Below, one piece after another: positions 10,097 through 18,449 of a stretch of DNA of 39,041 nucleotides. Location of the stretch: positions 1 to 39,041 of IMG/VR virus record IMGVR_UViG_3300029319_000151. The stretch is one strand, 5' to 3'. A program made the translations under genes and the position numbers. The notes beneath the pieces are model-generated. The model did not search any database, had not been told where the DNA came from, and worked only from the letters and a program-made list of their open reading frames with translations. This stretch comes from a virus. Position 1 is the stretch's first letter. Every line of letters starts with the position of its first letter.

Positions 10097-10575
10097 AAAA
10101 TACAGATAATACTAGATGTGTACGCTGTAGGGGTAAGATAGGCTACAGGTACAGAAAAGAAGGTATAGTTGTTTGTGAAAAATGTAACCCAGCTAAAAGT
10201 CCGTATCAAGTAGGTAGAGCTAGAATATCAGAAAAAGACGGTAGAGTGTATGAAGGATTACGTAAACAATTTTTAGGAGCACACCTAGATGATATTAATA
10301 TTATTGACCGTAGTAACGATTACCGTGTGGATCATGGTATACTTGGTTTAGCAGAGCAGTTTGAAGAACGTGATAAAGAAGCTAGACGTGAACATGAGAA
10401 TAGAAGGGTTTACGACGCTTTAGTAACTATGCATGAAGCTATAAAAGAAAATACAGGTGAGTACAGTAGTACACAAAGATACCGTAGACGTAAATTAATA
10501 CCTAAGGACTTAAGAGATACCGCAGGTAAATTTATGTTAAGTATGAAGGGTTGGGGATGGCAAAAAAGAAATTAA
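10084..10575 (+). CDS. Zinc-ribbon protein, 163 residues
   Basis: The N terminus carries a four-cysteine zinc ribbon, CVRCRGKIG (Cys-x2-Cys) and CEKCNP (Cys-x2-Cys), about 19 residues apart. The remainder is charged and Arg-rich (ERDKEARREHENRRVYD; RYRRRKLIPKDLRD), which suggests nucleic-acid contact. The end overlaps the start of the probable small terminase gene. Zinc ribbon plus basic region could be a transcription or packaging accessory factor; the sequence does not decide which. Confidence 0.75.
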   Translation: METIENTDNTRCVRCRGKIGYRYRKEGIVVCEKCNPAKSPYQVGRARISEKDGRVYEGLRKQFLGAHLDDINIIDRSNDYRVDHGILGLAEQFEERDKEARREHENRRVYDALVTMHEAIKENTGEYSSTQRYRRRKLIPKDLRDTAGKFMLSMKGWGWQKRN

Positions 10576-11024
10576 CTCCACGTCAAGAAAAATACGCACA
10601 AAACGTAGCTAAAGGTATGAGCAAGAAAGACGCAGCACAAAAAGCAGGTTATAGCGAAAAGAATGCAGCAAGAGCGGGTAGTGTACTTGACAGTAAAGCC
10701 AACCCTTTAGTAAGCCAACGTATACAAGCCTTACAAGAAAAAGCAGCCAAAAAAGTAGAACTTGATTTATCTACTCACCTTACAGATTTAAAAGACATAC
10801 GTGAGGGAGCTATGCGTAATGGTGCGTGGTCTGCTGCGGTTACTGCAGAAGTAGCTAGAGGTAAAGCAGCAGGATTATACATTAACCGTAGTGAGCTAGT
10901 AGTGAATAAAGTAGAGACTATGGATAAAGAACAAATACTAGACCGTTTAAAAGAACTTTACTATGAGACTGGAGGTATATTACCAATGGGCACTATCATA
11001 GAAGGTGATTCAGAAACCTCGTAA
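10557..11024 (+). CDS. terS: Terminase small subunit, probable
   Basis: ATG 10557 follows GAAGGG (10545-10550) at good spacing; a TTG six bases upstream is less likely. The 155-residue protein has a helix-turn-helix-like start typical of Terminase_2 small subunits: LTPRQEKYAQNVAKG, then KKDAAQKAGYSEKNAA, followed by long helices (VSQRIQALQEKAAKK) and a C-terminal tail. Small terminases bind the packaging site and regulate TerL. The large subunit lies more than 7 kb downstream at 18439, an unusual separation. The family match is by pattern; an HTH regulator of another kind is the alternative. Confidence 0.78.
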   Translation: MAKKKLTPRQEKYAQNVAKGMSKKDAAQKAGYSEKNAARAGSVLDSKANPLVSQRIQALQEKAAKKVELDLSTHLTDLKDIREGAMRNGAWSAAVTAEVARGKAAGLYINRSELVVNKVETMDKEQILDRLKELYYETGGILPMGTIIEGDSETS

Positions 11025-11032
11025 AATAATAC

Positions 11033-11040
11033 TTTACATC
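11033..11040 (+). promoter_or_regulatory. TTTACATC element upstream of the structured noncoding block
   Basis: This is the same 8-mer found in the promoters at 9469 and 12629, here nine bases after the small terminase stop. The matching -10 is poor: 17 bases on reads TAACCT, with TATAAC a little further away at 11061. If active it would drive the noncoding block that follows. Confidence 0.3.
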
Positions 11041-11055
11041 CTTATACAATTTAAC

Positions 11056-11352
11056 TAACCTATAACTAGGTTATAAACTACCTACAAAGCAGGGGGATAA
11101 GCTCCCCAAATAAGGGTAGGCTAAGATACAAGTTAAAATACGATGCGTGGCGAGACTTGATGGTTTATAGTTTAGGTAGTTTACTGTAGGAGATAACAAA
11201 CCAATTGATACTAGTTAATGGTAGCAACTAAACAGTAGACCACCGATTTTTAAATTAGGGTTGAACTAATTGAAGACACCAACGGAGTGCTCTGTCTTTA
11301 CCTATATTTTAGCAGAGTACTACAAGACGTCGTAGTAGATTAGTTTGACCCG
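11056..11352 (+). ncRNA. Candidate structured noncoding RNA
   Basis: No gene fits this gap, but it is full of long complementary stretches. A 7-bp hairpin joins 11056-11062 with 11067-11073. An 11-bp helix joins 11074-11084 with 11173-11183 and encloses a GGGG/CCCC hairpin (11092-11095 with 11104-11107). A 14-bp helix including GU pairs joins 11258-11271 with 11338-11351 and encloses a 10-bp hairpin (11286-11295 with 11312-11321). A second possible hairpin (11273-11278 with 11293-11298) competes with the last. The 3' side ends in ACCCGCTCTTTTATTTATT, which may help termination. It matches no tRNA, tmRNA, RNase P or hammerhead signature I know. Structure is seen directly; expression is inferred. 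Confidence 0.5.
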
Positions 11353-11390
11353 CTCTTTTATTTATTAGCAATAGAAGGTAATATATTCAT

Positions 11391-11702
11391 ATGGCTTTAA
11401 CCTTATTATTCAGCAACGGTAAAAAACTCAAAGAACCTATAACCAAAGAAAAGACAAAGACATGGTATGTCCCGTATACAACTATAGAAGTTGAGATGCA
11501 CAAGATAGAAGCTGATACGTATCAAGAAGCTATTAATAAAGCAACTCTACGTAACCGTAAAGGCAAGGTAAAGACGTACACACTACAAGAAACACACTCA
11601 ACCGACGCTTTTTTAACTCCGCACGTTAAAGAGCCTAATGAATTATTCAGTAGGTTTATTCATATGTTTAACGTCACGGTTGAAGATTTTGATAATACCT
11701 AG
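11391..11702 (+). CDS. Protein of unknown function, 103 residues
   Basis: A 103-residue protein after the structured block, with a modest ribosome binding site (GAAGG at 11374-11378). It has an alternating strand pattern (KTWYVPYTTIEVEMHKI), a helix around TYQEAINKATLRNRKGK, and a C-terminal helix LFSRFIHMFN. The EVEMHKIEADTYQEAI portion resembles the small alpha/beta fold with EADxxEEA seen again in the 66-residue protein at 14370. No named family is recognised. It is followed by a new promoter, so it may form a single-gene unit with the upstream RNA. Confidence 0.7.
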   Translation: MALTLLFSNGKKLKEPITKEKTKTWYVPYTTIEVEMHKIEADTYQEAINKATLRNRKGKVKTYTLQETHSTDAFLTPHVKEPNELFSRFIHMFNVTVEDFDNT

Positions 11703-12622: not shown

Positions 12623-12628
12623 CCATGG

Positions 12629-12657
12629 TTTACATCAAACCCCACCTTACCTATTAT
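12629..12657 (+). promoter_or_regulatory. Sigma70-like promoter with TTTACATC -35 region
   Basis: TTTACA at 12629-12634 and TATTAT at 12652-12657 are separated by 17 bases. The first ten bases (TTTACATCAA) match the promoter at 9469 exactly. The predicted start near 12664 gives a leader of about 42 bases with a ribosome binding site (AGGAGG, about 12691) before the ATG at 12706. Confidence 0.62.
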
Positions 12658-16405: not shown

Positions 16406-18449
16406 TTTAGCTAAATATCAAAGCGAAGAAGATTATAGGAAGATGCTTGAAGATATGAGTAGAGCACCAGCTGGATTTTTTCCGCCTGACTCTTACGTTG
16501 AGCCCTATGAACCTGGACCCACAGAAAAAACACAAGCCTATTTAACTAACTTACTAGGTAATAAATATTCAGCTAAAGGGTTAACGGACGTTTTAAGTTT
16601 TGCCCCAGTTAGTGGTAATATACTAGGTTACTTAGAAGGTAAAGAATTAGAGAAAAAAGGTAGTCCAGGACTAGGTAGTTTAATACAGGCGTTATCCGTC
16701 GCTATCCCTGGTGGTAAATCTAGGGTGATAGAAGGCGTAAAACCTAAAGTAGAACCTTTACCTAAAGTAACCGCTACTAAAGTACAAACTACTGATACTA
16801 ACCCAGACTTTGGTGATTTACAACGAGACGGGTTTGAACTAGTCGGTGGGTTGCCCACGTTTAGTAGAACTAACTTTAACAGTAACGCAGAATTTAGGTT
16901 AGCTACTAACCTTACTTTCCCTAAAGCTAATAAAAAATATAACGTTGAAGATTTAATAAAAAACACCATTAGTACCGCTCCACCTAGTTTACGTAACAGT
17001 ATCACTGAACAGTTTGATGACTTTGTTTCATCTAGTTTACGTGGTAAAAAAGCCACGAAACAAGAACTATTAGACGATATGGGTAAAAATACGCCTGTGT
17101 TTAAAGAAAACTATATGAACGACCCCGACGCTTATGTCAGAGACGCTACAAACATGCACCATGGAAGGTATCTGCCTAATATTCCTGGAACTAATACAAC
17201 GCCTGACTCTTTATTTTCAGCCTCACTTTTAAATAAACCTACTTCAGTAGTAGAAAGATCTTTTTCTTATACCCACCCTAAGTACGCTACTCTTGATAAC
17301 CCTATACACCCTGAAGTAGGTCTGGGGTCAGTAAACATAACCGCTAACAGAAGCGATATAATTACTAACACTCCAGGGCTGACTAATTCTAAAAACCGTG
17401 TTTTCCATTCAAGGGGAGCTATTTATGATGATGTAGGAGAAGAAGGAGAAAGAGTTTATATAGCGGGTGAAGGACAATCAGGCGTTTACGGTAGAAACAA
17501 TACGGTAAAAACTGCTGAGGATTACGCTAGTAAAAGAAGTCGTTTTAGTACAAGTGACGACGGTCCGTTGGCTGGTATACTTAGGGATGCAGACTCAGCT
17601 CAACCTAATTATATAGGTGACTATGACCTAGATCCGTTTTTAGCTAGAACTGAATTTAAAGATACTATTGAAGATTTAACTAAAACTAGAGCTGATGAAA
17701 TTAAAAATATACAAGAAGCTGAAGCTTTAGCTGCAGGGTTTAGAGGCGGTATGAAAGAAGTTGACGGTATAAAAAGTAAATACAGTAGACTCTTTACAGA
17801 ATTTACTGAAGGAGTTGACCCGCCTCCTAGTTTTACTCAAGTTCAAAATAAAATAAACGCAGTTGACAATGAAATATTAGATCAATTCAACCGTGTCCAG
17901 GATTTAGAAAACCAAATACAGTTTAGAACTATTGAAATAAACCGTAACTATAACGACTTAATAAAACCTTTATTAAAAGGTGGGACACAAGTAGCTGACG
18001 GTAAAATACCTTTAGTTAAAGAATGGTTTCCCTTACATATGAAAACCAGCATGAACGAAGCGATAGAACAAGGAGCTGATTCTATATACTTCCCCGTTAA
18101 CGATTACGCAGTGGCTAAACAAACTGGTCAACGTTTACAACCCGAAAGAGTACGTCAATATAAATACAGAACGGATAGTTTTGAAGAAGGTGAATCTGAA
18201 GAGCTTCTTTACACACCAGGAGAAACAGCTCAAGGTTTAGCACCTTTTTACCGTCAAGAAACTAAAAGAGGCGTAAAACGTATAGAAGACGAATACGGTA
18301 TAAAATTAAACGCTGAAACTATAATGGACGACAATAATAATGAATTTGTAAAAATAGCCCTAACCCCAGAAATAAAAGAGGCACTCAAAAGAATACTCTA
18401 TAACCGTGGGGGATTAGTGACTATGATGCCGTTAAAATATGGAATATGA
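16383..18449 (+). CDS. Large protein of unknown function preceding TerL, 688 residues
   Basis: This is one of the largest genes in the window. The N-terminal 110 residues include SYVEPYEPGPTEKTQAYL and a small glycine/hydrophobic stretch (LSFAPVSGNILGYLEG; ALSVAIPGGKSR). The middle has FHSRGAIYDDVGEEGERVY and YIAGEGQSGVYG, a long coiled-coil-prone region follows (TQVQNKINAVDNEILDQ), and the C terminus ends ILYNRGGLVTMMPLKYGI. Similar NRGG/KGG-type ends occur on large proteins in marine phages. HSRG, YFPVNDYAV and EGQS could belong to a large polyvalent or virion-ejected protein. It is directly coupled to TerL. I cannot assign an activity. Confidence 0.75.
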   Translation: MIENLLNSLAKYQSEEDYRKMLEDMSRAPAGFFPPDSYVEPYEPGPTEKTQAYLTNLLGNKYSAKGLTDVLSFAPVSGNILGYLEGKELEKKGSPGLGSLIQALSVAIPGGKSRVIEGVKPKVEPLPKVTATKVQTTDTNPDFGDLQRDGFELVGGLPTFSRTNFNSNAEFRLATNLTFPKANKKYNVEDLIKNTISTAPPSLRNSITEQFDDFVSSSLRGKKATKQELLDDMGKNTPVFKENYMNDPDAYVRDATNMHHGRYLPNIPGTNTTPDSLFSASLLNKPTSVVERSFSYTHPKYATLDNPIHPEVGLGSVNITANRSDIITNTPGLTNSKNRVFHSRGAIYDDVGEEGERVYIAGEGQSGVYGRNNTVKTAEDYASKRSRFSTSDDGPLAGILRDADSAQPNYIGDYDLDPFLARTEFKDTIEDLTKTRADEIKNIQEAEALAAGFRGGMKEVDGIKSKYSRLFTEFTEGVDPPPSFTQVQNKINAVDNEILDQFNRVQDLENQIQFRTIEINRNYNDLIKPLLKGGTQVADGKIPLVKEWFPLHMKTSMNEAIEQGADSIYFPVNDYAVAKQTGQRLQPERVRQYKYRTDSFEEGESEELLYTPGETAQGLAPFYRQETKRGVKRIEDEYGIKLNAETIMDDNNNEFVKIALTPEIKEALKRILYNRGGLVTMMPLKYGI

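Follow-up and report, generated by a model that had tools for sequence, protein, structure and literature searches.

The intergenic region downstream of the terminase small-subunit gene terS in the window (the whole stretch analyzed, 39,041 nucleotides of IMG/VR record IMGVR_UViG_3300029319_000151) almost certainly encodes a structured RNA, which is a new family of HTVC023P-type pelagiphages without a match in Rfam. The initial annotation had described this gap as free of genes, and it does comprise 366 bases (11025-11390) between the end of terS at 11024 (10551-11024; Terminase_2 in a Pfam search) and the start at 11391 of a 103-aa open reading frame (ORF; 11391-11702), which has no Pfam or PHROG match. 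The sole ORF inside the gap encodes 42 aa on the reverse strand. The whole gap folds at -90.2 kcal/mol, versus -74.2 ± 5.4 kcal/mol for shuffled sequences (z = -2.98), and none of 100 shuffles folded as well, in line with the earlier view that pairing of this extent is unlikely to arise by chance. The 14-bp closing helix reported there is present in the minimum free energy (MFE) structure as P1 of the core (11067-11080/11161-11174), and the other helices and interior hairpins were recovered when the gap was folded piece by piece. Another 14-bp helix closes a 3' module (11258-11271/11338-11351). Thus, the helices are real, but their arrangement as a single domain under one closing helix gave way to three successive modules on the plus strand: a core (11067-11174; z = -1.9), a pseudoknot-like hairpin (11175-11244; z = -2.75), and a second hairpin that leads into U-rich sequence (11258-11365; z = -3.7 for the 3' module). 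That the structure belongs to no recognizable RNA family was confirmed for the window with Rfam at both gathering and permissive thresholds, and a 901-base scan at permissive thresholds gave no match either.

The core is a three-way junction supported by the MFE, RNAalifold, pair counts, and our model R1, which scores 133 bits at this site. Beyond P1 (14 bp), its helices are P2 (11081-11085/11116-11120), P3 (11093-11097/11103-11107), P4 (11129-11134/11154-11159), and P5 (11139-11142/11146-11149). In the window, the unconstrained MFE is the consensus structure, and RNAalifold without prompting gives essentially the same result. An alignment of 20 distinct cores (A1; mean column identity, 89%) has standard pairs in 98% of pair cells and changes on both sides in seven pairs. 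P1 exchanges U-A for C-G, A-U for U-A, and G-C for A-U; P3 has one position with four pair types and another that alternates between G-C and C-G; and P4 exchanges A-U for U-A and C-G for A-U. Overall, 35 double-change cells were counted in the core, compared with 12.6 ± 2.4 in shuffles, and the covariation score was 0.249 versus 0.02 to 0.06 when the structure was slid along the alignment. In three sequences, P4 has gained a U in one strand and an A in the opposite strand, which amounts to an inserted base pair. P2 and P5 are invariant, so for these two helices the evidence is the fold and not covariation. Thermodynamic support differs among the modules, and it is the comparative evidence that makes us consider the core certain; covariation among relatives, on which the structured-RNA interpretation hinged, is present and strong there. 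Approximately 70 of the 108 core positions are invariant, including bases in the junction and loops. The 27 G-U cells on the plus strand would read A-C on the other strand, which points to an RNA of the plus strand.

The modules 3' of the core are more variable. In the window, the core is followed by an exchangeable hairpin that we call type V4 (11175-11244; stem 11175-11187/11232-11244), whose interior could form a pseudoknot-type pairing and contains the palindrome ACUAGU. In L001, L082, and L002 (L numbers denote individual related loci), the flanks are the same but other hairpin types take the place of V4, and the exchange between the window, L001, and L082 occurs between identical flanks of near-identical phages. 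Most relatives have type V1 at the position of V4, and types V1 and V2 occur also away from the core. V1 shows covariation of its own, including in a pseudoknot, where AGGU/ACCU alternates with AGGA/UCCU and GAGUA/UACUC with GGGGA/UCCC; this covariation is weaker, being drawn from 11 sequences, and 23 of 500 shuffles reached its count of pairs changed on both sides. An 8-mer of V1 changes between copies yet remains palindromic (GACUAGUC versus GACAUGUC); such 8-mers might pair within one molecule as tiny hairpins rather than between molecules. The third module (M3; 11258-11351) folded better than all 200 of its shuffles; its closing helix surrounds a long interior helix and is kept in L001, L002, L003, and L082, among which the interior differs. 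In L002, the core interior is gone and a mini-hairpin of P1 is kept, and the same mini-hairpin sits inside the third module in L082. The U-rich tract after the last helix (11352-11365; GCTCTTTTATTTATT region) is a possible intrinsic terminator.

To place the RNA among related phages, we compared the window with cultured and environmental genomes. Its large terminase subunit is 55 to 61% identical to those of the Pelagibacter phages HTVC027P and HTVC023P and two further relatives, indicating that the window is a fragment of an HTVC023P-type phage. A search with terS led to 80 IMG/VR loci that were fetched; blastn of the gap located a core of ∼124 nt in about 20 of them, in various places, and exact patterns raised the count to about 32 IMG/VR contigs of related phages, a few of the pattern hits being chance matches. 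Among 26 IMG/VR records searched whole with R1, 15 contained exactly one core and none contained two. The exact patterns were taken from the most conserved parts of the RNA and may miss diverged members. With the same limit on diverged copies, they matched 0 of 84,980 species in a genome collection; 50,697 phage records contained no match for the core, and blastn against cultured phages returned just short chance matches. Weak R1 matches in HTVC027P (20 bits; E values, 0.05 to 0.6) overlap annotated genes and were discounted. In papers on HTVC023P-type phages, we found nothing on noncoding or intergenic features. The Put-type antitermination RNA of HK022 was considered as well, and a limited literature search for it yielded no paper.

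The core and its 3' hairpin very probably constitute a discrete cassette that occupies intergenic spots once per genome. Sites in L022 and L031 are filled, whereas those in L019 and L033 are empty; the empty sites read ...TTTT/ATATATT..., and the L022 cassette, AGGTTATAAGC...GACCACCGCC, lies exactly between the two halves. Likewise, L043 is filled and L039 is empty. The L043 cassette is flanked by two copies of CTACTAGGTTA, an 11-bp direct repeat, and sits at the hairpin loop of another folded spacer. The core always lies on the strand of the flanking genes. Four kinds of genes precede it (terS, a gene of 232 to 244 aa, a 102-aa gene, and MazG), and several unrelated families follow it. The initial annotation had attached meaning to the position beside terS, but in relatives the core follows the 244-aa, 102-aa, or MazG gene, and either the core or the entire RNA is missing from near-identical relatives; the proximity of the RNA to terS is incidental. 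The RNA is also not essential, because L005 has lost it entirely and retains a short hairpin with the same U tract. In some contigs of the MazG subfamily, a further folded module of 96 to 297 nt separates the core from the MazG gene. In L090, L113, L093, and L096, the 211 to 297 nt directly upstream of the core form one large folded module, and the stretch from the MazG stop codon to the core reaches 297 nt and -86 kcal/mol.

The surroundings of the cassette suggest where its transcript would begin and end. In the window, a promoter-like pair precedes the core on the plus strand (11033-11061), with TTTACA at 11033-11038, a 17-nt spacer, and a weak -10 element, TAACCT, at 11056-11061. In all subfamily-1 copies, the distance from TTTAC to the first P1 base downstream is exactly 35 nt, and the hexamers found after the 17-nt spacer include TTTAAT (L007), TATATT (L010), and CTTAAT (L043). 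This geometry comes from two independent sites, one before the 103-aa gene and one before a 66-aa gene; copies within one promoter site are related, and the number of contigs is not a number of independent events. The TTTAC box is retained in empty sites. From this sequence pattern, transcription in this subfamily probably starts at the first base of P1. A generic sigma-70 scan made no call at the promoter-like pair in the window, and a terminator scan returned nothing on the plus strand of the gap, the hairpin loops being too large for its limits. The U tract is missing between the RNA and the downstream gene in L010-type copies, where the RNA would therefore form a 5' leader; copies of the MazG subfamily lack the promoter box and lie in a 3' UTR-like setting. 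Another intergenic gap of the window (12627-12657) contains a TTTACA-17-TATTAT promoter-like pair with the same box.

Our favored reading, to which we give an even chance, is that the cassette specifies a modular noncoding RNA of the plus strand, made as its own transcript and acting as an accessory RNA. This RNA of ∼290 to 300 nt would open with the three-way-junction core, continue with an exchangeable hairpin that contains a pseudoknot, and end in a hairpin and the U tract. The cassette would be seated at a transcription start, such that the first base of the RNA is the first base transcribed from a TTTACA-type promoter, and termination at the U tract would release a separate transcript. 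The RNA may then act in its own right, as an accessory, trans-acting, or self-assembling structural RNA, and would not regulate one particular neighboring gene; the palindromic loops would be the likeliest place for RNA-RNA contact. Action in trans, considered separately, falls slightly short of an even chance, and the argument for it is indirect, namely, that the neighbors are inconsistent.

The main rival of the accessory-RNA reading is that the RNA caps the ends of phage mRNAs in cis: a stable structure at the very 5' terminus or within the 3' UTR would shield transcripts from RNases in infected cells, and the adjacent small gene would be incidental. We regard it as a real, if minority, possibility. 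P1 would start at the predicted +1, the L010-type RNA, which lacks a U tract, abuts the ribosome-binding site of the downstream gene, and the MazG-subfamily RNA is placed after a stop codon, all as such a cap would have it. The rRNA signal is lost in cells infected by the relative HTVC027P (PMC11066056), so extensive RNA degradation may threaten phage transcripts in those cells, and we count this in favor of the cap. However, a simple hairpin would suffice for protection, whereas the invariant junction and loop bases (∼70/108) imply a more specific task, and a single copy per genome is odd for a general protector.

A riboswitch-like leader, with the three-way junction as the aptamer and the variable 3' hairpin as the expression platform, is unlikely. 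It would explain why junction and loops are conserved while stems covary and why the next element is a variable hairpin that in some copies has a U tract; moreover, the centroid of the window ensemble pairs CUACCU in the core with AGGUAG at the foot of the hairpin that follows. Yet L043 and L099 disrupt this alternative pairing, the function of the downstream gene is inconsistent across several unrelated families, and several copies are in 3' UTR-like places. Less likely still is a selfish DNA hairpin element of the MITE or REP kind, whose structure would serve transposition and have no RNA function. The filled and empty sites, the L043 direct repeat, and the nesting of hairpins in hairpins fit such an element, but there is never more than one core per record, the many G-U pairs favor RNA over DNA folding, and both the constant orientation with the flanking genes and the conservation of junction and loop bases speak against it.

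A packaging RNA or pac site working with TerS, like the phi29 pRNA, is highly improbable. The RNA adjoins terS in the window and its palindromic loops could oligomerize, but in most relatives the distance to terS is 0.7 to 1.5 kb or more, L005 does without the RNA despite a 97% identical TerS, and the core is absent from the 62-kb record behind L002; the RNA shows neither a constant association with packaging genes nor indispensability. We give practically no credence to a decayed or unusual small gene, since the 46-aa frame that runs through the core in L043 contains stops in the other copies read, and P4 has one-base insertions on both sides and substitutions that preserve base pairs. A group I or II intron was rejected: there was no Rfam match in the window or in 16 related loci, and, by eye, group I-like R and S motifs are in the wrong order.

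Other spacers of these phages are also well folded. A 158-nt spacer upstream of terS (L018 2596-2753, L019 2363-2520, and L022 2833-2991) has z scores of -5 to -6.5 and is another candidate structured RNA; its L018 copy has no Rfam match. Well-folded spacers also share a motif of approximately GCYTRGTGRCGG...CACNCYARGCACTYAA, which appears to represent another RNA family of these phages; it recurs at L010 6945-7158, L040 3361-3727, L044 5879-6239, L064 6178-6645, L037 5981-6539, L027 5801-6298, and L060 5082-5552. Large spacers near terS without an Rfam match are found in cultured HTVC023P (L133 11320-11865; z = -4.5) and in 023Pt_psg01 (L134 16153-16477; z = -6.3).

The RNA described here is a covariation-supported family without a match in Rfam or the searched genomes, and it is carried by the most abundant known group of SAR11 phages; the HTVC023P-type group is reported to make up ∼7.6% of all virome reads (PMC12753301). 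Since cultured HTVC027P carries a similarly arranged RNA, the question can be put to a direct test in "Ca. Pelagibacter" HTCC1062, the host in which the infection transcriptome of this phage has been published (PMC12753301). Filled and empty sites in close relatives provide natural knockouts.

Several known systems share features with the window RNA. The phi29 pRNA is a phage RNA encoded near packaging genes, with possible loop-loop contacts; unlike it, the window RNA is not tied to terS and is absent from close relatives. BOX elements, Rickettsia palindromic elements, and GC clusters resemble it in the insertion of discrete hairpin cassettes, nesting, and module exchange, but they are multicopy, whereas the window core is present in a single copy and is highly conserved as RNA. 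GOLLD and ROOL are elaborate phage-encoded RNAs with pseudoknots and a conserved core with variable parts, and their function is unknown (PMC12286853). The window RNA has these structural features in common with them and is much smaller. GOLLD and ROOL are often near tRNA islands (PMC12286853), a setting unlike that of the window and 20 related loci, in which ARAGORN found no tRNAs; at gathering scores, the window and 16 related loci matched no Rfam family, GOLLD and ROOL included.

The closest architectural counterpart comes from the same phage group. In cultured HTVC027P, the terS and terL regions are separated by a folded spacer of 548 nt (17671-18218; z = -5.0) with one Rfam match, Flavobacterium-1 (RF02976; 90 bits; L132 17753-17873, minus strand). 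A pattern derived from this RNA found at least 120 stretches in viral contigs, and among the matches listed, 101 of 104 genuine-looking ones lie beside relatives of HTVC023P/027P-type proteins on the same piece. This suggests that, among viral sequences, Flavobacterium-1 is mainly an RNA of pelagiphages and that its name may mislead. Homology of the window RNA to Flavobacterium-1 was not detected in either direction, so we did not file it as a member: a single-family search with the RF02976 model (threshold, 58.9 bits) gave no match in the window or the carriers up to an E value of 10, and R1 with filters off, run against the RF02976 sites, gave only chance-level matches away from those sites. 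The sequences of P2, the junction, and P4 also differ. By eye, however, both RNAs have a multibranched domain closed by P1 and a separate 3' hairpin. The Flavobacterium-1 domain comprises P2 with an internal loop and P3, as well as P4, and its 3' hairpin comes in interchangeable types with the palindromic loops GUGCAC, GUCGAC, and UGAUCA. In phage contigs, it occurs in the same pelagiphage group as the window RNA, near terS, polA, and terL. Speculatively, the region around terS and terL in HTVC023P-type pelagiphages may be a fast-evolving island of modular self-assembling RNAs, in which the window RNA and Flavobacterium-1 would form one architectural class of cassettes that were moved to transcription start sites and act in trans on the host, for example, in RNA turnover or in the loss of ribosomes in infected cells.
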